Source: Desulfobacterales bacterium HSG17 | GTDB taxonomy: Bacteria; Desulfobacterota; Desulfobacteria; Desulfobacterales; Desulfococcaceae | DNA length: 9,043 bases | Reading direction: 5' to 3' | Assembly (NCBI GenBank): GCA_030377945.1 | Contig: JAUCGD010000026.1 | Span: 1-9,043 of the forward strand | In this document: positions 3 to 8,729 of the stretch, piece after piece | Layout of the letters: every line of letters begins with the position of its first letter | How positions within the stretch are numbered: position 1 is the first letter of the stretch | Made by a program: the position numbers and the translations under genes | The notes under the pieces: model-generated | The model's input: only the letters and a program-made list of their open reading frames with translations | Database searches by the model: none | Told to the model about the DNA's origin: nothing

Positions 3-986
3 AATATTACACTTGTTGTGGAAGATGAACAGGGTAAATCAGGGCAGATAGTTTTTACAATAAGCAGCCAGGAATCAAATATTCAGCTTCAAGCAGATTC
101 TACTGGTTTTGTTGTTGGTGTTCCCGGGGAGCATGAGATTCTTGGAGATTATCTTAAGCAGTCAGGCTATGGAGTGCTGCACGCTAAAAATGGTGCAAAA
201 GGTCTGGAAATGCTGAAACTTCATAAACCTGAACTCCTGCTTCTGGATATACAAATGCCGGTTATGGACGGATTTCAGGCTCTTAAAAAAATCAGGGAAA
301 TTCATGAATTTAAAAATACCCAGGTAATCCTGCTGTCTTCACTGAATCGTGAGTTTTTAAAACAAAAAGGCATGGACCTGGGAGCAGATGATTATATTGC
401 CAAGCCTTTTGGAAGAGGGGAACTGCTGACCCTCATCAACCTGGCATTTCGCAGAACAGAGCAGAGCCGATCCACTGAAGGCATTATGAAAGGCGATCTT
501 TCTGACCTTGGCCTGCCTGATCTTCTTCAAAGTATGGAACTTGGGACAAAAACTGCCAGTATTTTTCTAAAAGATGCAGATGGTGAAATCCATATTCAGG
601 AAGGCTCCTTAATTCATGTAAGACAGGGAAATTTTATTGGAGACAAGGCCCTGCTGAGAATATTTCTTTTTGAAAAAGGGGTATTTACTGTTAAATTTAA
701 TGAAATCCCAAAAAATATTTCCGGCACTCCTGTTCCTCTTATGTCAATATTAATGGAAAATATGGCTGGTGTTGATGAAATACGCGATATTATCAACCGT
801 ATGCAGGTTGGCAGCCGTATGCTTGAAATACAAGGGAATATATCTGAATTTCCGGCTATTAACAAATTCAAAGAGCTTTTCCCGATTTCTTTTACAGAAC
901 TGATGGTTCATATGGAAGATCATCTGAAAAATAATATTAAAATATTAATCAGTGCATTAAGAAAAGGTGTAATAAGGCTAGTATAG
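3..986 (+). CDS. Receiver (REC)-DUF4388/PATAN response regulator, 5'-truncated by the window edge
   Basis: The reading frame is open to the left edge, so the GTG at 18 is probably internal and the true start lies upstream. Numbering residues from that GTG, a receiver domain spans about 29-147. It has the phospho-acceptor D77 in an LLLLDIQMPVMDG context, S107 after the fourth strand and K129 in an AKPF motif. The acidic pair that normally follows the first strand and binds Mg2+ is not visible: the region reads VVGVPGEHE. From about 159 to 230 comes a DUF4388/PATAN-type domain (GDLSDLGLPDLLQSMELG, later a DG/EGSLIHV-like turn), a module often attached to receivers in Deltaproteobacteria and thought to mediate protein interactions. 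The C-terminal tail (about 231-322) is not recognised. No DNA-binding domain is seen. The next gene begins only 9 bases after the stop, so it is probably co-transcribed with the hydrogenase cluster and may be its signalling output or input. The domain calls are firm; the role is inferred. Confidence 0.85.
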   Translation, partial: NITLVVEDEQGKSGQIVFTISSQESNIQLQADSTGFVVGVPGEHEILGDYLKQSGYGVLHAKNGAKGLEMLKLHKPELLLLDIQMPVMDGFQALKKIREIHEFKNTQVILLSSLNREFLKQKGMDLGADDYIAKPFGRGELLTLINLAFRRTEQSRSTEGIMKGDLSDLGLPDLLQSMELGTKTASIFLKDADGEIHIQEGSLIHVRQGNFIGDKALLRIFLFEKGVFTVKFNEIPKNISGTPVPLMSILMENMAGVDEIRDIINRMQVGSRMLEIQGNISEFPAINKFKELFPISFTELMVHMEDHLKNNIKILISALRKGVIRLV

Positions 987-995
987 GGGGTAATT

Positions 996-2594
996 ATGAA
1001 TCTGGGTATTTTTTTGTCCAAATGTGAAGGGGTTGTGGGAACTGCAATTGATCTTGAGGCACTTGCAGATGAATACGGTCATGTGCAGTCTGTTAAAATC
1101 TTTGACAGCTTTTATTATGAAAAGGATTTTGACTTTCTTTTAAATGAGGTCAGTACCCATAAATTAGATTCTCTTGTTCTGGCCGGTGATTCTCCCATGA
1201 TGTACAGAAAAACTCGAAACGGAGATTATATTTTAAAAAGTCTTTCAAAAAAAGGGATAAATACCAACAGGATAATCATGGTAAACCTGAAAAACATGGT
1301 ATCCATGCCCCATGAAGCCAGTCAGGCAGAATTGCAGCTAAAGGCAAAGCTTTTGATTGATGTGGGCATTGAAAAGGTTCGTTATTCAGGAAAAGTCAAG
1401 ATGGTGGAGGTTGCTCCCAGGAAAGCTGTGGCTGTAATTGGAGCCAGTATCTCAAGTATTGCTGTTTCACAGCATTTTTTAGATGAAGGATATAAGGTTT
1501 TCCTGATTCATGAAGGAGAAGAAATTGACCTGCGGGCTGATGATTCAGCCCATATTTATCCTACATTTGTATATGTCCTGCGCCATCCGCGTTTCAGGGT
1601 TATAAACAGGGCAGTGGTAAATGACCTGTACGGTTTTCCAGGTGATTATACATTGGAGATAAGTTCAAATGCCAATTCTCAAGATAGATCCCAGAATATT
1701 TCTGTGGGAGCTGCAGTTCTGGCTCTTGAAAATAATCGGAAGCTTATAAAAGAATACCAGTCTGTATTTCGCCTGGATGTTAATGAAAACGGTTTTCTGT
1801 CTCCCCTGGATGAAACCTCAGCCCGGTCTCAAACCCTGGACAGGGGAATCTTTGTTGTTGATTATATTAAATCAGATCAAAATAATATAAGCAGAAAACT
1901 TGTTTCAGCCGATGCAGCCGCAAGCATGGTTATTAATCTTTTAAACAGAAAAGAAATCTTTCACAGGATAATGGTAAGCCAGGTTAATACCAGGCTTTGC
2001 AGCGGTTGCGGGGCATGTGTTAAAACATGTATATTTAAAGCAGTGTCACTTCAGGAAGATCCTGCCATATCTGTTATTGACCCTGAAAGATGCAGGGGAT
2101 GCGGAAACTGCGTAACAGCCTGTCCTGCCGATGCAAGGGATCTGGTTGCATATCCAAGCTCTTATCTGTTTAAAGCTGTTGATATACTTTCAAAATTTTC
2201 AAGTGATAATAATGACCCTAAAATGCTGGTCATGGCCTGTGACGGCTGCGGATACCGGTGCCTGGATGATGCAGGTGCAGCAGGTTATACATGGCCGGTC
2301 AGTGTTATGCCTCTTAAACTGGTATGTGGAGGACAGATAGATACCCAGCTGATAATGCACGCTTTTGTAAAAGGCTTTGATTATGTGGTGTTAATGGTTT
2401 GTGCAGAAGGCTCCTGCCATAATGCAATCGGAAATGTTGAACTGGAACGGCGGGTCAATCTTTTCAGGGAAATCCTTGCAAGCCGGGGCATAGACCACAA
2501 GAGAATGCACATAATAGCCGCATCCCGCAACAGCACCGAATGCGTAGAGCGTATCAGCAGAATATACAACCGCCAGCCAAGCTCTTCATCATAA
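996..2594 (+). CDS. HdrA-like / MvhD-like fused iron-sulfur protein (electron-transfer partner of the hydrogenase)
   Basis: This 532-residue cytoplasmic protein resembles a shortened HdrA (heterodisulfide reductase subunit A) fused to MvhD, the [2Fe-2S] linker between Mvh hydrogenase and Hdr. Residues 1-135 follow the HdrA N-terminal fold, but only C10 remains of its cysteines. A Rossmann strand at about 144-172 reads VIGASISS (G149-S154) instead of GGGxAG. The HPRFRVINRAVV segment and the late VSADAAASM segment still match HdrA. Two [4Fe-4S] ferredoxin motifs are intact: C335/C338/C341/C345 and C366/C369/C372/C376. The MvhD part (about 410-525) has C415/C418/C422, C444, C469 and C474, followed by the family-like ERRVNLFREIL helix. 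A good AGGGGG site lies 5 bases before the ATG. The family's role is to carry electrons between hydrogenase and HdrA flavin. Here the flavin and N-terminal cluster are doubtful, so it may only relay or sense redox state. HdrB and HdrC are absent from the window. Confidence 0.85.
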   Translation: MNLGIFLSKCEGVVGTAIDLEALADEYGHVQSVKIFDSFYYEKDFDFLLNEVSTHKLDSLVLAGDSPMMYRKTRNGDYILKSLSKKGINTNRIIMVNLKNMVSMPHEASQAELQLKAKLLIDVGIEKVRYSGKVKMVEVAPRKAVAVIGASISSIAVSQHFLDEGYKVFLIHEGEEIDLRADDSAHIYPTFVYVLRHPRFRVINRAVVNDLYGFPGDYTLEISSNANSQDRSQNISVGAAVLALENNRKLIKEYQSVFRLDVNENGFLSPLDETSARSQTLDRGIFVVDYIKSDQNNISRKLVSADAAASMVINLLNRKEIFHRIMVSQVNTRLCSGCGACVKTCIFKAVSLQEDPAISVIDPERCRGCGNCVTACPADARDLVAYPSSYLFKAVDILSKFSSDNNDPKMLVMACDGCGYRCLDDAGAAGYTWPVSVMPLKLVCGGQIDTQLIMHAFVKGFDYVVLMVCAEGSCHNAIGNVELERRVNLFREILASRGIDHKRMHIIAASRNSTECVERISRIYNRQPSSSS

Positions 2595-2619
2595 GGAAGT
2601 ATTATAATAAGGAGGCATC

Positions 2620-4431
2620 ATGTCATTAAGTAAAAATTACCTTATTTCCGAATCCATTGGCAGCGGTTCCATGGGAACCATAAGCAAGGCCATTCAAAAA
2701 TCCCTTGACCGCTTTGTTGCTGTTAAACAGATTCATCCCCATCTTTCCAAAGATCCCCAGCATATACTTCGCCTGGAAAGAGAGGCCAAATCCGCAGCCC
2801 GTTTAAACCACATGAATATAATGGAAATTATTGATTTCGGAAATGAAGATGAACAATATTATATAGTTGTGGAATATATTGACGGCCCTTCCCTTGCCGG
2901 AATTTTTCAAAATATCAGCTCACTTTCCATGGATGTTATTTTTTCTGTCATAATACAAATGCTTAACGGGCTTGAACATGCCCATAATCACGGCATTATT
3001 CACAGGGATATTAAGCCTGAAAATATCATGTTTACCTGTTCAGGAGTTTTAAAGATAACTGATTTCGGAGTAGCCCGTATTGCCAAACATCCTTCCATAA
3101 CCCAGGAAGATCAAAACATAATCGGAACACCTTATTATATGGCTCCTGAACAGGCTGAAGGAAAAAAAACAGATCACAGGGCCGACCTGTTTTCCGTGGG
3201 TGTTGTTCTTTACCAGATGCTTTGCAATGCACTTCCATTTAAAGGAAACAATATTGCAACAGTCTTAAATGAGATTATATATAAGCCCCATACTCCTGTA
3301 AAAGAGCTGAATCCTGATATTGCTGAAGAATTGTGTAATATTGTTGAAAGAGCTTTGGAAAAGGATGTGACCCATCGTTTTTTTGATGCTGCTGAATTTG
3401 CCTATGCACTTGAAACATTTGCACAAAATGCCGGTATTCAATTCAGCCCCAGGATACTCAAAAACTTTTTTGAATCTGACCTGAATTTATCACAGCCTGA
3501 AACCAAGCCTGAAAGATCGGAATTTTCAAAAAGCTATATTGGCAAAGGACGCGCCACTTGCGCCATACTTCCCCTTACAGGATGTTTCGGATGCCAGGTC
3601 AATCTCCTGGATCTTCATGAAGATTTTCAAAAACTTTATAAAAAGCTTGATGTCAGGTTCAGTTATTTAATGGACATAAAAGAGATTCCCAAGGTGGATA
3701 TTGGCATTGTTGAAGGTTGTGTTGCCAATTTTGACAACCAGGCAAAATTGGAAAAATTGAGAGATTCCTGTGAAACCCTGGTTGCCCTGGGAACCTGCGC
3801 ATGTTTCGGAGGAATTCCCGGACTCAGGAATTTTCATGGAATTAACGATGTTATTCAAAGAGCATACCTTCAGTCAGAAAGCACGGTTAAACTGGGAACA
3901 ATACCTGATTCCCCTGAGATTCCGTCCATGACAGATAATGTGCATCCTTTGTCAGATATTGTTAAAATTGATTATAAGATTCCAGGATGCCCGTCTCCTC
4001 CCCACATGGTGCTGGAAACCATTGACCATCTGATTAAAGGCACGGAACCTGAGATTCCCACCCACACCCTTTGTTATGAATGCACCAGAACCAGGAAAGA
4101 GATGCTTAACCCCAGGCGGGAGTTTATTGCAGACAAAATAAATCCTATTATGGAACTTGAAAAGATTGATCCTGAAACCTGTTTTCTTGAACAGGGAGTT
4201 TTGTGCATGGGCATTACAACCAGGTCAGGATGCAATGCCCGCTGCTTAAAAAACAATATCCCGTGCCAGGGGTGTATGGGACCCGGCCCCCATGTAAGGG
4301 AAACAGGAGCAAAATGGATAAATGCCCTGGGTTCCCTGCTTCCCGGAGGTTCCATGAGATTCCGCCATGATCTGGTGGGCATTGGATACTGCTACACCCT
4401 GCCCATTTCAATGATGCCGTTTAAAAAATGA
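2620..4431 (+). CDS. Ser/Thr protein kinase fused to an MvhG-like [NiFe] hydrogenase small subunit
   Basis: One uninterrupted 603-codon frame joins two complete proteins. Residues about 7-268 form a Hanks-type kinase: glycine loop IGSGSMG at 13-19, lysine K36 (VAVK), helix-C E55, HRD with catalytic D130, K132 and N135, DFG at 148-150, and GTPYYMAPE at 169-177. All residues needed for catalysis are present. After a linker (about 269-310) comes a hydrogenase small subunit running to the C-terminus. Its proximal-cluster ligands are C322/C325 (TGCFGC), C393 (GTCACFGGIPGLRN) and C457 (PGCPSPP). Eight further cysteines, C485, C488, C521, C529, C538, C542, C549 and C552, can hold the medial and distal [4Fe-4S] clusters. 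There is no Tat signal, and the N-terminal kinase places the protein in the cytoplasm, as for group 3 enzymes. AAGGAGG lies 4 bases before the ATG. No in-frame ATG, GTG or TTG with a ribosome site occurs at the domain junction (about 3470-3560), so a separate small subunit is unlikely. The inferred role is kinase activity gated by H2 or redox state. Confidence 0.92.
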   Translation: MSLSKNYLISESIGSGSMGTISKAIQKSLDRFVAVKQIHPHLSKDPQHILRLEREAKSAARLNHMNIMEIIDFGNEDEQYYIVVEYIDGPSLAGIFQNISSLSMDVIFSVIIQMLNGLEHAHNHGIIHRDIKPENIMFTCSGVLKITDFGVARIAKHPSITQEDQNIIGTPYYMAPEQAEGKKTDHRADLFSVGVVLYQMLCNALPFKGNNIATVLNEIIYKPHTPVKELNPDIAEELCNIVERALEKDVTHRFFDAAEFAYALETFAQNAGIQFSPRILKNFFESDLNLSQPETKPERSEFSKSYIGKGRATCAILPLTGCFGCQVNLLDLHEDFQKLYKKLDVRFSYLMDIKEIPKVDIGIVEGCVANFDNQAKLEKLRDSCETLVALGTCACFGGIPGLRNFHGINDVIQRAYLQSESTVKLGTIPDSPEIPSMTDNVHPLSDIVKIDYKIPGCPSPPHMVLETIDHLIKGTEPEIPTHTLCYECTRTRKEMLNPRREFIADKINPIMELEKIDPETCFLEQGVLCMGITTRSGCNARCLKNNIPCQGCMGPGPHVRETGAKWINALGSLLPGGSMRFRHDLVGIGYCYTLPISMMPFKK

Positions 4432-4459
4432 TGCCGTTTAAAAAATGATGCTGTCAAAA
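4410..4459 (+). repeat. 17-bp tandem duplication spanning the stop codon of the kinase-hydrogenase gene
   Basis: The unit aatgatgccgtttaaaa occurs at 4410-4426 and again, identically, at 4427-4443. A degenerate third copy (aatgatgctgtcaaaa) follows at 4444-4459. The first copy encodes the last residues (MMPFKK) and the TGA stop at 4429-4431 falls in the second copy, so the duplication did not change the protein. It lengthens the gap before the large-subunit gene, whose own AGAGAGG site at 4471-4477 lies outside it. This is probably replication slippage. Confidence 0.9.
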
Positions 4460-4484
4460 GATAGATAATCAGAGAGGTTAACAA

Positions 4485-5924
4485 ATGTCTGTTGCAAAAA
4501 CCATAGAGATAGATCCTGTAACACGGGTAGAAGGTCATGGAAAGATCGCCATTCACCTGGATGAATCCGGGAAAATAGAAGATACATTTTTCGGTGTTAC
4601 CGAGTTCCGGGGATTTGAAAAATTCTGTGAAGGAAGGATGCTCTGGGATATGCCCACAATAACAAACCGTATCTGCGGATTCTGCCCTGTAAGCCATCAC
4701 CTTGCTTCTGTCAAAGCATGTGAAGCCCTTCTCGGAGTCGAACCTCCACCCGGAGCCACAAAACTAAGAGAACTGCTTCATATGGGCCAGATGATTCATT
4801 CACATGCTCTGCACTTTTTTTTCTGCGCCCTTCCTGACACAATGTTTGGTGAAAACGCATCAGGAACAGAGCGCAGTCTGTTCGGCATAATGGAAAGCAA
4901 TAAAAAACTTGCAGCAAGTGCCATAAAACTGAGAAAAGCAGGCCAGCAGATTGTTGATATAGTGGGCGGAGGCAGGCTTCATCCCATTGCCTGCCTCCCC
5001 GGAGGAATGAGCAAGCATCTTACCTATATTGAAAGAGTGGAAATGCTCAAGGGAATCGGCTCTGCCATTAAAATTGCCCAGAAAGGCATGAAAATGATTA
5101 AGGATATGTATGCAAAGCAGCCCCAGGTGTTCATGCACTTTGCATCTTTTCCCAGTCTTTATATGGGCATGGTCAAAAATGAAAATCTTGAACTATATGA
5201 TGCGCCCATAAGGGTTATTGACCAGGACGGCAAATTTTTAAGGGATTTTGAAGCAAAAGACTATCTTGCATTTATTGAAGAAAAAACAGCACCAACAAGC
5301 TGGACAAAGTTTACCTATTTTAAGGAAAGCGGGGCTGCAAACCGTTTTTACAGGGTAGCTCCCTTAGCACGTCTTAACATAGCCAAAAACATATCAACTC
5401 CCCTGGCTGATGCAGAACTCCAGGAATTTAAAAAGATCGGAGACGGAAAACCCATACATGGCAGCTTCTTCTTTCATTATGCAAGGCTCATAGAACTGCT
5501 TTATGCAGTTGAACGGGCAAAAGAACTGCTTTATGATCCTGAAATTTTAAGCAATGATGTAAGAATCCCGGTTAAACGGTGTGGAGGTGAAGGAGTAGGT
5601 GTGCTTGAAGCTCCAAGGGGAACTTTGATTCATCACTATTGGGCAAATGAAGACGGAAGGCTTACCAAAATTAATCTTATTGTGGCAACAGCCCATAATA
5701 ATGAAGCCATGAACAGAAGCGTAAGAATTGTGGCTGAAAGTATAGTTCATGACGGAGAAATAAAGGAAAAAGACCTGAACAAGCTTGAAATGGCTATCCG
5801 CTGTTATGACCCCTGCCTTTCCTGTTCATCCCATGCCTTTGGGCAGATGCCTCTTGAGATAACAATCTGCGGCCATGATAAAAAAGTGATCAACAGGTAT
5901 GAGTATGGATACATGCAGAGATAA
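4485..5924 (+). CDS. [NiFe] hydrogenase large (catalytic) subunit, group 3c/MvhA-like
   Basis: This 479-residue catalytic subunit carries the Ni-Fe(CN)2CO site that splits or makes H2. The N-terminus has the family RVEGHG motif (R14-G19, with E16). The L1 motif [11 protein letters not shown] lies at 62-72, giving nickel ligands C64 and C67. The late EAPRG motif is at 375-379. The L2 motif DPCLSCSSH at 442-450 gives C444 and C447. All four nickel-binding cysteines are therefore present, so this is not a degenerate homologue such as the complex I NuoD type. After H450 a 29-residue tail remains. In this family such a tail is cut off once nickel is inserted, and the protease gene immediately downstream overlaps this one by 26 bases. 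The ribosome site AGAGAGG lies 7 bases before the ATG. The partner is the kinase-fused small subunit encoded just upstream. The subgroup assignment rests on the MvhG-like partner and the MvhD-like neighbour, and would need a phylogeny to confirm. Confidence 0.95.
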
Positions 5925-6420
5925 CCTGTTAATTGCAGGTATTGGAAATACCCTGCGGGGTGATGACAGGGTTGGGATTTTTTTGATGAAAAAATTGGAA
6001 AAGCATTTTCTCAATACCATTAAATACCTTGAGATCCATGCCCCTGATATTCTTATGGCTGAAACCTTTTCCCAGTTTGAAAACCTGCTGATTATAGATG
6101 CCATATGTATGGATGATGATAAACCCTATAAGCTTATCCCTATTAAACCTGCAAAAAACATTGCCCCTTCCCCCGGATTTCCAGCCCATGTAGTTGGCTG
6201 GGATACTATTTTATATACAGCCAGGGAATTCTTTGGCCATGCTCCTCAAACCGTTCTTTTAGGTGTGGCAGCCTGTGACTTTGATTTTTCCGAAACCCTG
6301 TCAACTCAATGCAGGGCAAATGCAGACAAGGCATTTGAGTTTATAGTTAAAAACCTGATTAAAACTTTGATAAAAGATAAAACCACGAATCACACGAATG
6401 ACACGAATAAAGTAAACTAA
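5899..6420 (+). CDS. Hydrogenase maturation endopeptidase (HyaD/HybD/FrcD-type, peptidase family M52)
   Basis: This nickel-dependent protease of up to 173 residues should remove the C-terminal tail of the large subunit encoded immediately before it. The signature GIGNTLRGDDRVG lies at 14-26. By recalled alignment to HybD, the metal-binding residues would be D23, D67 (LLIIDA) and H97 (FPAHVVGWD), and all three are present. The gene overlaps the large-subunit gene by 26 bases, which suggests translational coupling. ATG 5899 has no room for a ribosome site because AGG ends one base before it. The second ATG at 5905 (MDTCRDN) sits 7 bases after AACAGG and is the more likely start, giving 171 residues. 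The last 12 residues are odd: three x-T-N tripeptides (TTN HTN DTN) are encoded by a 9-bp DNA repeat, so the normal C-terminus probably ended near LIKTLIKDK and the tail is repeat-derived. Confidence 0.93.
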   Translation: MSMDTCRDNLLIAGIGNTLRGDDRVGIFLMKKLEKHFLNTIKYLEIHAPDILMAETFSQFENLLIIDAICMDDDKPYKLIPIKPAKNIAPSPGFPAHVVGWDTILYTAREFFGHAPQTVLLGVAACDFDFSETLSTQCRANADKAFEFIVKNLIKTLIKDKTTNHTNDTNKVN

Positions 6421-6452: not shown

Positions 6453-6635
6453 ATGTCAAATGATAAACTTCATCCTGCAAACTATGAATCGGATGAGCCT
6501 CTTTACAGTGATGACGGAGTGGATCTGACACTTATTCGCTGGATGCTCTCTCTGACTCCTGAAGAACGTCTGGATGTATTAAGAAAGAATGTTCAGGCTA
6601 TCAATCGTTTACGTGAGGCAAATAAAAATGGGTGA
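6453..6635 (+). CDS. Small conserved-looking protein paired with a nucleotidyltransferase
   Basis: This encodes a 60-residue, charged, soluble protein with no signal peptide or membrane segment. The N-terminal third is acidic (ESDEPLYSDDGVD). The rest looks helical (LIRWMLSLTPEERLDVL followed by NVQAINRLREANK). A weak purine-rich site AAGAGA lies about 6 bases before the ATG. Its stop overlaps the next gene's start by 8 bases (6628-6635), so the two are almost certainly translated together. I recall similar short LxxLTPxERL proteins encoded directly before small nucleotidyltransferases, but I cannot name a family. A partner or antitoxin-like role is an inference from the layout only. Confidence 0.7.
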   Translation: MSNDKLHPANYESDEPLYSDDGVDLTLIRWMLSLTPEERLDVLRKNVQAINRLREANKNG

Positions 6636-7110
6636 TTTTCTTGAAAGCTTGCCGGTTCTCGTAAAATATAAAGTTGATTTCATAATAGTTGGGGGAGTCT
6701 GTGCTGTTTTGCATGGTGTTCCTGTAACTACTTTTGATCTTGATATTGTTCATTCACGGACATCGAATAATCTTGAACGCCTTATGGAAGCGCTGACTGA
6801 GTTAAATGCTTACTATCGCGGAGGGCCTGGCAAGCCTTTGAAACCGGATGTTGAATGTATTGCATCTTCAGGGCATCACCTGTTTATGACAGATTTCGGA
6901 CCATTGGATGTTCTTGGAATCATAGGTAAAGGTCATGGTTATGAGGATTTGATAAATGATGTTAAAATATTAAATTTTGAAAAAATGGATTTAAAAATTC
7001 TGAATCTTGAGCGACTTATTCGGATTAAGGAAGAAACAGGACATGAAAAGGATTTGTTTGTAATACCAATATTGCGGAATACGCTCAGAGAAAAAAATAA
7101 CAAAACTTAA
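6628..7110 (+). CDS. Nucleotidyltransferase-fold protein, possible toxin-antitoxin component
   Basis: From the ATG at 6628 this encodes 160 residues. An earlier in-frame ATG at 6589 would add 13 residues lying wholly inside the upstream gene and is less likely. The fold is that of small minimal nucleotidyltransferases: a helix (LPVLVKYKVDF), then the VGGVCAVLHG turn with G22-G23, then the acidic pair D37 and D39 in TTFDLDIV, which would bind metal and nucleotide. The end (LKILNLERLIRIKEETGHEKDL) matches the usual C-terminal helix of DUF6036/NTP_transf-like proteins, where a lysine and an aspartate recur in the KD step. The substrate is unknown; relatives include the AbiEii and MNT types. A third catalytic carboxylate is not obvious to me. 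The 8-base overlap with the 60-residue gene and the nearby hsdM suggest a toxin-antitoxin or defence setting. The fold is fairly sure; the function is not. Confidence 0.8.
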   Translation: MGDFLESLPVLVKYKVDFIIVGGVCAVLHGVPVTTFDLDIVHSRTSNNLERLMEALTELNAYYRGGPGKPLKPDVECIASSGHHLFMTDFGPLDVLGIIGKGHGYEDLINDVKILNFEKMDLKILNLERLIRIKEETGHEKDLFVIPILRNTLREKNNKT

Positions 7111-7113
7111 TGC

Positions 7114-7162
7114 TTGTATAAAGCGATTTAGCGCTCAAAAACCGCTAAAGCGCTTTATACAA
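7114..7162. repeat. 49-bp near-perfect inverted repeat between the nucleotidyltransferase and hsdM
   Basis: The left arm 7114-7133 (ttgtataaagcgatttagcg) and right arm 7143-7162 pair over 20 bp with a single mismatch (A7126 with C7150 or its neighbourhood), around a 9-base loop (ctcaaaaac). The word TATACAAA at the right end (7156-7163) recurs at 7183-7190, close to the hsdM start. No T-run follows on the + strand, so it is not a typical intrinsic terminator. A TATAAT-like hexamer at 7173-7178 lies just downstream but has no convincing -35 partner. It could be an operator for hsdM, an RNA hairpin that insulates hsdM from the upstream operon, or a small mobile palindromic element. Confidence 0.85.
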
Positions 7163-7199
7163 ACGTAAATTATATAATTTCCTATACAAAGATTTATCT

Positions 7200-8729
7200 G
7201 TGAAAAAAAAAGATAAGGAATCTAAAAAATTGATTGAAAACCAAGAACTGACCCTGACAAATCTGGAATCCCATTTATGGGGGGCTGCAAATATTTTACG
7301 GGGAAAAATTGACTCATCTGATTACAAGCATTACATATTCGGCCTTCTGTTTTACAAGCGTATCTGTGATGTGTGGGAAGAGGAATATGAGGCCAGAATG
7401 GCCGAATTTGACAATGATGAACTTGCCAGACACCCTGACGAACACCGGTTTTCCATTCCCCAGGGCCATTTCTGGAAAGATGTTAGGAAAAAATCCACAG
7501 ATATCGGGTCCCATCTTAATATTGCTTTTAATGCTATTGAAGATGCCAACCTCCGCTTAAAAGGCGTGTTCCAGGATGTGGATTTTAATAACAAGGAAAG
7601 ATTTCCTGATGCCACCCTGGAGCTGCTTATGCAGCATTTTGACAAATACAGGCTGCGCCGCTCAGATGTGGAACCGGATATGCTGGGCAATGCCTATGAA
7701 TACCTGATTGCCAAATTTGCCGATGATGCAGGTAAAAAAGGAGGCGAGTTTTATACACCGAAAATGGTGGTAAAACTTATTGTAGCCTGCCTGAAACCTG
7801 ATGAAAGCATGAGCGTATATGACCCCACCTGCGGCAGCGGGGGGATGCTCCTTGCCTGTTTTCACTATCTTGCCCAGCATAATAAAAATCCCAAATCTTT
7901 GACTCTGTACGGCCAGGAAATGAATTTAAATACCTGGGCCATCTGCAAAATGAACCTGTTTCTCCATGATATTGATGATGCGTTCATTGCCCGCGGAGAT
8001 ACCCTGACCGATCCGAAACACCGGGTTTCTGAAAACAGCAAGGCCATCATGACCTTTGACCGGGTTATAGCAAACCCGCCCTTTTCCCTGAAAAGCTGGG
8101 GACACGACCTGTGGAAAAAAGGAGACCCATTTGCAAGAGACATCTACGGATGCCCCCCAAAATCCTACGGAGACCTGGCATTTGTACAGCATATGGCAGC
8201 CAGCCTGAATAAAAAAGGAAAGCTGGGAGTCGTCCTGCCTCACGGTATCCTGTTTCGAGGCGGGGCTGAAGGTAAAATCCGCAAAGGTTTTTTACAAGAT
8301 GACCGCATAGAAGCTGTAATAGGTCTTGCCTCGCAATTGTTCTACGGAACCGGTATTCCTGCCTGTGTCCTGATAATCAACAACAGCAAACCCAAAAACC
8401 GCAAAGGCAAAGTCCTGATTGTAAACGGTTCTGAAGAATTTGTGGAAGGTAAAAACCAGAATACCCTGTCTGAAGAAAATATTTGCAAGATGGTCAAAGC
8501 CTTTCATGATTTCAAGGATAAAGAACGATTTTGCAGGGTAGTGGATGCGGCAGAGATTGAGGAAAATGATTTTAATTTGAACATTGCCAGATACGTACAG
8601 ACAGCAGAACCGGAACCGCCCATTGATGTTAAGGCTGAGTTGGAGAAGTTGAAGGGATTGCAGACGGAGAGGAGTCAGGCAGAGGGGCGGATGATGGGGT
8701 TTTTGAAGGAGTTGGGGTATGGCTGTTGA
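7200..8729 (+). CDS. hsdM: Type I restriction-modification system DNA methyltransferase subunit M
   Basis: This encodes the methylation subunit (509 residues from GTG 7200), which transfers a methyl group from S-adenosylmethionine to adenine N6 and forms the MTase with HsdS. The N-terminal helical HsdM domain covers about 18-160 (LTNLESHLWGAANILRG, IFGLLFYKRICDVWEEEYE). The N6 methylase domain begins at about 170 (YEYLIAKFA, GEFYTPKMVV). It has the SAM-binding motif DPTCGSGG at 208-215 and the catalytic NPPF at 292-295, so it appears active. The C-terminus (about 475-505) is a likely coiled coil that would contact HsdS. The GTG at 7200 lacks a ribosome site. An in-frame TTG at 7230 (codon 11) has AAGGA at 7215-7219 with 10-base spacing and is a real alternative start. 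hsdS and hsdR are not in the window; the 314 bases after the stop are repeat DNA. The last 100 bases are noticeably G-rich compared with the rest of the gene. Confidence 0.95.
   Translation: MKKKDKESKKLIENQELTLTNLESHLWGAANILRGKIDSSDYKHYIFGLLFYKRICDVWEEEYEARMAEFDNDELARHPDEHRFSIPQGHFWKDVRKKSTDIGSHLNIAFNAIEDANLRLKGVFQDVDFNNKERFPDATLELLMQHFDKYRLRRSDVEPDMLGNAYEYLIAKFADDAGKKGGEFYTPKMVVKLIVACLKPDESMSVYDPTCGSGGMLLACFHYLAQHNKNPKSLTLYGQEMNLNTWAICKMNLFLHDIDDAFIARGDTLTDPKHRVSENSKAIMTFDRVIANPPFSLKSWGHDLWKKGDPFARDIYGCPPKSYGDLAFVQHMAASLNKKGKLGVVLPHGILFRGGAEGKIRKGFLQDDRIEAVIGLASQLFYGTGIPACVLIINNSKPKNRKGKVLIVNGSEEFVEGKNQNTLSEENICKMVKAFHDFKDKERFCRVVDAAEIEENDFNLNIARYVQTAEPEPPIDVKAELEKLKGLQTERSQAEGRMMGFLKELGYGC
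7215..7219 (+). promoter_or_regulatory. Possible ribosome binding site for an alternative hsdM start (TTG 7230)
   Basis: AAGGA lies 10 bases before an in-frame TTG (Leu codon 11 of the longer hsdM frame). The GTG at 7200 has no purine-rich site within the preceding 15 bases. The core HsdM homology (LTLTNLESHL) starts after both candidates, so homology does not decide between them. Confidence 0.35.

Follow-up and report, generated by a model that had tools for sequence, protein, structure and literature searches.

A Ser/Thr protein kinase fused to a [NiFe] hydrogenase small subunit in Desulfobacterales bacterium HSG17 and other bacteria

Introduction

What does a protein do that carries a Ser/Thr protein kinase and a hydrogenase subunit in one chain? 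The question is raised by a stretch of 9,043 nucleotides from Desulfobacterales bacterium HSG17 (contig JAUCGD010000026.1), here called the window. An earlier note, made from the letters alone, had read one open frame in it as a kinase joined to an MvhG-like small subunit of a [NiFe] hydrogenase and had proposed that H2 or redox state might gate the kinase. We examined whether the fusion is real, how it is conserved, which partners accompany it and which role these observations favor.

Results

A kinase and a hydrogenase small subunit in one reading frame

The single frame proposed in the earlier note was borne out by Pfam, NCBIfam and PDB searches, and its coordinates were correct (Table 1). 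Pfam placed Pkinase at residues 9-254 (E 1.3e-56) and Oxidored_q6 at residues 322-471 (E 8.9e-25). The best NCBIfam kinase model was NF033483 (Stk1/PASTA kinase), which matched residues 3-271 with 297.8 bits against a cut-off of 450. This match stops at position 272 of the 563 in the profile, leaving the PASTA part unmatched, and the protein is not a PASTA-kinase equivalog. In the small-subunit half, VhuG matched residues 312-600 (E 2.8e-62) with 210.6 bits, under its cut-off of 450. The closest PDB sequences were 9ymt_A and 4eqm_A for the kinase half (E 1.5e-53 at 4-260) and MvhG, 5odc_E, for the small-subunit half (E 2.6e-61 at 318-573).

Table 1. Features of the window around the kinase-MvhG fusion gene
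Feature	Position	Strand	Evidence or remark
RR-DUF4388 protein (response regulator)	3..986	+	5' end beyond window; Pfam
Short HdrA-like subunit with C-terminal MvhD (FlpD) domain	996..2594	+	Pfam, NCBIfam, alignments
Kinase-MvhG fusion ORF, 603 aa, ATG start	2620..4431	+	Pfam, NCBIfam, PDB sequence search, alignment with 39 fusions
Ser/Thr protein kinase domain, HRD-type, residues 9-254	2644..3381	+	Pfam, PDB search, AlphaFold match to PknB kinase domains
Linker, residues 271-311	3430..3552	+	Variable sequence; low pLDDT at 293-309
MvhG/VhuG-like [NiFe] small subunit, residues 312-603, 12 conserved cysteines	3553..4428	+	NCBIfam, PDB search, alignment
MvhA-like [NiFe] large subunit	4485..5924	+	Pfam, NCBIfam
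Hydrogenase maturation protease	5899..6420	+	TIGR00072 E 7.5e-21

The catalytic residues of a Hanks-type kinase are all present, namely the catalytic Lys (K36), the alpha-C Glu (E55), the HRD Asp (D130), the Asn (N135), the DFG Asp (D148) and the PE of APE (P176-E177). The small subunit is complete, with all 12 cluster cysteines. Its first cysteine pair, C322/C325, which presumably binds the proximal cluster in the MvhG family, lies only 10-13 residues past residue 312. An AlphaFold model (mean pLDDT 69.1) was mostly confident in the kinase domain, except at residues 151-165, and weak across much of the small subunit (pLDDT <50 at 480-504 and 526-603); it gave no interface between kinase and hydrogenase. 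The top 50 Foldseek rows for this model were all kinases, with PknB first at 34% identity.

Successive genes from that of the RR-DUF4388 protein to that of the protease are separated by 9, 25, 53 and -26 bases, and a GGAGG lies shortly before the start codon of the fusion ORF. Because the gaps are so close, the five plus-strand genes at 3-6420 likely form an operon. Past the protease, positions 6453-8729 contain three further genes: a small ORF, one whose nucleotidyltransferase matches stay below threshold, and a type I methyltransferase (7200-8729).

The fusion is conserved in a family of proteins

The earlier note had suggested a database search for both domains in one chain. When the small-subunit half was scored against whole proteins of about 332-1055 aa, 58 proteins matched, and 41 of these carry Pkinase and Oxidored_q6 together, the window's own protein and one apparent duplicate being counted. 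The other 39 fusions that we aligned are 52-76% identical to that of the window, and their sources, where named, are Desulfobacterales, Planctomycetota and 'bacterium'. Three fusion loci were available as DNA from two genomes: L115 and L116 in G1302, and L117 in G1294. The L115 fusion, at least one that the protein search overlooked, is new and 64% identical to its best match; the L117 fusion is 90% identical to P0019. Since the L116 fusion is identical to P0016, the 43 aligned rows represent 42 distinct sequences. The two fusions of G1302 are 56% identical to each other.

Genome samples scanned with the small-subunit half suggest that the fusion is rare in one order, where it was present in 2 of 194 genomes (1e-50; four genomes with matches, three fusions). 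A sample of 384 genomes returned the same four genomes, and two single-genome families repeated those matches. The samples overlap. In the remaining ones, matches occurred in 3/10 genomes at 1e-10 and 0/377 at 1e-50, in 2/114 (frames of 332-333 aa), 19/59 and 6/57 at 1e-30, and in 0/395 and 2/392 (both stand-alone) at 1e-55. At L102 and L103, the matches lie inside long open frames of 760 and 913 aa, each with one TGA within. Scanning genome contigs with the whole fusion was uninformative on fusions because kinases swamped the matches, the best 80 of 580 relatives all falling within residues 2-339. Viral contigs held no relative of the small-subunit half, and the window DNA had no match in phages in near mode. 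Plasmids gave 976 matching records; among the 10 matches listed, eight are annotated as kinases and two have no annotation, and in two records the match extends over 87% of the query, with 23% identity.

The kinase motifs singled out in the earlier note (K36, E55, D130, D148 and APE) are all present in the window's protein. Residues K36, E55, D130, N135, D148, P176 and E177 are invariant in all 43 rows (42 distinct); the A of APE is replaced by S in 38/43. G14 is conserved in 40/43 rows and G16 in 42/43. Ten of the cluster cysteines are present in every row, and C322 and C325 in 42/43, the exception (P0041) being a deletion. In the activation loop, position 170 is T in 43/43 rows and position 161 in 39/43. 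Mean identity over 780 pairs is 57.9% for the kinase half and 60.5% for the small-subunit half. Both halves therefore look functional and under about equal constraint, and a decaying or passive kinase is unlikely, since such a domain would not be expected to match the conservation of the hydrogenase subunit. A gating site was not apparent, because only positions 580 and 593 passed our test for fusion-specific fixed changes in residues 312-603.

A probable single origin of the fusion from kinase-free parents

We determined how the fusions are related to other proteins by phylogenetic analysis of each half. In a small-subunit tree of 96 rows, the fusions fell in one clade of 45 (SH-aLRT 100, stem 0.68), of which 40 are fused. 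Four of the others are fragments: P0011 begins within the kinase C-lobe on a contig of 1146 bases, and the contigs of the non-fused P0179, P0181 and P0195 measure only 958, 915 and 1417 bases. The fifth, P0180, has no kinase call; it sits on a contig of 409,361 bases and begins at the linker end, and a contig of the same size carries a short HdrA-like protein (P0105, 433 aa). P0180 may be a split, broken or genuinely kinase-free gene. The 40 fused rows rule out that all close relatives keep the two genes separate, and the 45-row clade contains no clear case of kinase loss. In the kinase tree, the 40 fusion kinases formed one side of a branch (99) against 40/80 outside kinases, which are 35-43% identical to the kinase of the window. 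As both halves form single clades, a single origin of the fusion, from kinase-free parents that are still extant, is most likely.

Such parents are common. A search limited to shorter proteins gave 375 matches to stand-alone small subunits about 50% identical, in agreement with the premise of the earlier note that this is the usual form in the parent group; five of the best 120 of these 375 belong to the fusion clade. In six kinase-free stretches (L106-L109, L118 and L119; L108 and L109 contain L107 and L106), HdrA-MvhD, MvhG and MvhA occur together. The small subunit is 45-52% identical in G1428, G1395, G910 and G1083. A tblastn search of 3.8-15 kb around the kinase-free operons found no kinase. 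A 950-aa frame in L106 was considered as a further fusion and rejected as a stop-free frame in GC-rich DNA.

A shortened HdrA-MvhD accompanies the fusion

Two partners that bear on mechanism, the HdrA-MvhD lacking the flavin region and the RR-DUF4388 protein, were left unused in the earlier note. HdrA-MvhD contains a ferredoxin domain at about residues 331-385 and an FlpD domain at 411-518. It aligns to HdrA of 5odc (5odc_A) at 6-238 and 534-647, while 5odc_A 239-533 is without counterpart, except for weak ferredoxin repeat matches; the alignment to 9sfi_A picks up again at 501. The available part of PMC12054007 gives K409 and E356 as two key HdrA residues. If their numbering is that of 5odc, both fall in the missing part, and the flavin domain of a bifurcating Mvh-HdrABC is not found here. 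The Rossmann glycines (GxGxxG) are degenerate and the region around them is poorly conserved among the HdrA-MvhD rows. Fusion and non-fusion clades share eight invariant ferredoxin cysteines and largely invariant MvhD cysteines. With the flavin region largely missing and its glycines degenerate, bifurcation of the HdrA type is unlikely. We set aside a bifurcating HdrABC complex. HdrB and HdrC were found neither in the window (ORFs, Pfam) nor in a Pfam scan of 20 ORFs from L115-L117; their genes could sit elsewhere. Loss of the flavin region did not coincide with gain of the kinase, since the kinase-free parents also have the short HdrA-MvhD.

HdrA-MvhD adjoins the fusions at L115, L116 and L117 as well. 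Linkage was assessed through contig sizes: 21 of the 41 distinct sizes of fusion contigs, the window's included, recur among the best 120 of 151 HdrA-like proteins, and controls with shifted sizes averaged 0.2 recurrences and never exceeded 2. DNA confirmed the linkage on two contigs, those of L116 (8794; P0016, P0078) and L115 (9478; P0066). In a midpoint-rooted tree of the HdrA-like proteins, whose P-row links rest on shared contig sizes, all 22 fusion-linked rows fell in one clade of 41 (100, stem 0.58). The clade also includes 19 rows without a link; the 20 rows linked to stand-alone MvhG all lie outside it. Such a clade on a long stem would fit a change of role of the whole complex upon gain of the kinase.

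All members of the 41-row clade have C10 in the HdrA-like protein (window 1023-1025), a residue that is not conserved in the other rows. Fusion of HdrA to MvhD has been described before, as type Ia HdrA. Among the matches listed in our literature search, some available in part, we found no description of the short HdrA-MvhD/MvhGA family.

Large subunit, protease and neighboring genes

The large subunit matched VhuA (E 7.4e-122) with 406.9 bits, under the cut-off of 800. It carries RICGFC and DPCLSC, which we take to be both Ni-binding CxxC motifs, and a C-terminal tail of 29 residues past DPCLSCSSH. Compared to their counterparts at L117, the large subunit is 67% and the protease 45% identical.

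A homolog of the RR-DUF4388 protein occupies the same place at L115 (46% identity over 283 residues), and none was found by tblastn beside L116 or L117. In G1294, the genome of L117, RR-DUF4388 matches among those listed were only partial and at receiver level. Two more long matches occur in G1302, one on contig C441 and one on C101, and the stretches read around these sites had no match to the HdrA-like protein, the fusion or the large subunit. As the RR-DUF4388 protein is present at two of four readable loci, it is a candidate phosphorylation target, no more.

Within the window's RR-DUF4388 protein, the phospho-acceptor region (LLLLDIQMP) is kept. The acidic residues seem lost, given that the start of the response regulator reads VVGVPGEHEIL against ILIVDDDGNQ at L115. 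The protein also has an N-terminal stretch without Pfam match. Another homolog in G1302 (L129), 47% identical, lies away from the fusions.

The neighbors scanned at L115 are metabolic, and those at L117 include transport and metabolic genes and a HipA-like gene. Upstream of L116 are a phage-type integrase and a Uma2-family gene. At L117, about 4 kb upstream of HdrA-MvhD, positions 16288-18630 hold two flavoprotein genes (Fer4_20/Pyr_redox_2 and a DHODB-type FeS subunit), which we take to resemble an Nfn or sulfide-dehydrogenase pair.

Discussion

Comparison with known systems

The fusion complex most resembles group 3c [NiFe] hydrogenases as in MvhAGD-HdrABC (5odc), with the same small-subunit cysteine pattern, an MvhA-like large subunit and an MvhD domain. 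By profiles and motifs, with both profiles under cut-off, it has an MvhG-type small subunit with all cluster cysteines and an Mvh/Vhu-type large subunit with both CxxC motifs. It differs in the kinase on MvhG, in an HdrA shortened in the flavin region, and in the lack of visible HdrB and HdrC within the regions scanned. The kinase-free operons share the same three partners, but their MvhG is unfused. The kinase domain is similar to those of the Hanks-type kinases PknB and Stk1, with the hydrogenase small subunit in place of the PASTA part.

Links between hydrogenases and signaling have been described or proposed. According to the available parts of PMC10073562 and PMC5665086, HoxBC-HoxJ is a characterized [NiFe] group 2b sensor with a histidine kinase as a separate subunit. 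Like the fusion complex, it ties a cytoplasmic [NiFe] module with three [4Fe-4S] clusters to a protein kinase. Unlike it, HoxBC-HoxJ belongs to another hydrogenase group and has its histidine kinase on its own subunit instead of a fused Ser/Thr kinase. HoxC also has no C-terminal extension (PMC10073562, available part), in contrast to the large-subunit tail and protease gene of the window. The available part of the HydDB table lists group 2b as histidine-kinase-linked, group 2c as putatively diguanylate-cyclase-linked, and putative [FeFe] groups C1-C3 with a histidine kinase, a chemotaxis protein and a Ser/Thr phosphatase as outputs. In 2c and C1-C3, a hydrogenase is joined to a signaling output as here, and none of those listed has a Ser/Thr kinase output. 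Other regulatory links of hydrogenases appear in PMC8163306 and PMC11406978, the available parts of which include no Ser/Thr kinase. The earlier note knew of no system with this architecture; likewise, our literature search, which mostly did not extend to subscription journals, returned no description of a fusion between a kinase and a [NiFe] small subunit among the matches listed.

A possible H2- or redox-responsive kinase

We consider it an even prospect, judged from sequence, that the complex is a soluble, cytoplasmic H2- or redox-responsive Ser/Thr kinase, in which the state of the NiFe site and proximal cluster is coupled to kinase activity. MvhA would split H2, and the electrons released would enter the small-subunit half of the fusion with its three FeS clusters. 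From there they would move on to the MvhD and ferredoxin centers of HdrA-MvhD, which lacks a flavin region for bifurcation. The redox or ligand state of the NiFe site and proximal cluster might then shift the seating or dimerization of the kinase domain. Such a shift may alter autophosphorylation at T161/T170 of the activation loop and action on partners, with the neighboring RR-DUF4388 protein as a possible target. Since the small-subunit part begins so close to C322/C325, the kinase is probably tethered close to the active-site end of the relay. Assembly of the complex, H2 turnover, gating and all phosphorylation targets are what we infer.

Several observations favor a sensor kinase. The catalytic residues are invariant and the cysteines nearly so, the two halves are about equally constrained and form single clades, and the flavin region is largely missing. 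Moreover, HdrA-MvhD has co-diverged, G1302 has two fusions, a receiver-type gene lies upstream and there are precedents for hydrogenases in signaling. Against a sensor, the large subunit differs from HoxC of the known sensor in keeping a C-terminal tail and a protease gene, and a relay that seems able to support turnover would suit an enzyme equally. The short HdrA-MvhD is also found in the kinase-free parents, and the response regulator is missing beside L116 and L117. Nor is a gating site apparent, and the model is poor over much of the small subunit and without interface.

The leading alternative is that the kinase responds to some other signal (ATP level, a ligand or another kinase) and phosphorylates the hydrogenase, HdrA-MvhD or maturation factors, thereby switching H2 metabolism, with the fusion keeping regulator and target together. 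In its large subunit, C-terminal tail and protease the complex looks like a working enzyme, and large subunit, relay and protease appear competent for turnover; the complex also has kinase-free relatives, which presumably function as plain enzymes. On the other hand, Pfam shows no separate input domain on the kinase and an enzyme regulator need not be fused to a subunit, neither of which is decisive. On balance, we regard this alternative as unlikely but serious. Sequence cannot separate it from the sensor-kinase reading.

It is less probable still that the hydrogenase is a passive tether, which holds the kinase for localization or co-expression while each works independently and the kinase signals regardless of H2. 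The linker sequence varies (28% mean identity, 741 pairs), as that of a tether might, but its length is near-constant (41-53 residues in 39/40), and kinase loss is not clearly seen in the fusion clade, with P0180 as an ambiguous case.

An anti-phage defense kinase of the PD-T4-6 type is very improbable. PADLOC PDLC04060 matches residues 3-272 (E 1.1e-86) and the type I methyltransferase lies downstream. However, the PD-T4-6 profiles match the kinase domain alone, the scanned neighbors at L115 are metabolic (those at L116 and L117 are given above), and the hydrogenase half would be left without a role, for which reasons we set this explanation aside. Finally, an artifact, be it a chimeric assembly or an overlooked stop between two genes, has a negligible chance, as the same in-frame junction recurs in 39 other fusion proteins and in DNA loci of two other genomes.

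Significance

The kinase-hydrogenase fusion is real, conserved and present in dozens of environmental sequences, and H2 sensing by its kinase is plausible from the sequences compared. Tentatively, and with somewhat more doubt than belief, we propose a bolder form of the sensor-kinase reading: this may be the first H2-gated eukaryotic-type kinase, in which a group 3c-like hydrogenase, by the state of its NiFe site and proximal cluster, exerts direct control over a Ser/Thr kinase on the same chain. The flavin-less HdrA-MvhD would serve as electron sink or potential reference, and H2 in anoxic habitats would be linked to a Ser/Thr phosphorylation network that includes the RR-DUF4388 protein. Because both halves share one chain, transfer from redox state to kinase is directly testable on one purified complex. 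With the fusion, the short HdrA-MvhD/MvhGA family, which is common in databases (the 375 small-subunit matches), has been drawn into a kinase system. For sensory hydrogenases, joining a [NiFe] small subunit covalently to a Ser/Thr kinase would represent a novel type of output and, if the reading is true, cells would convert the presence of H2 into protein phosphorylation.
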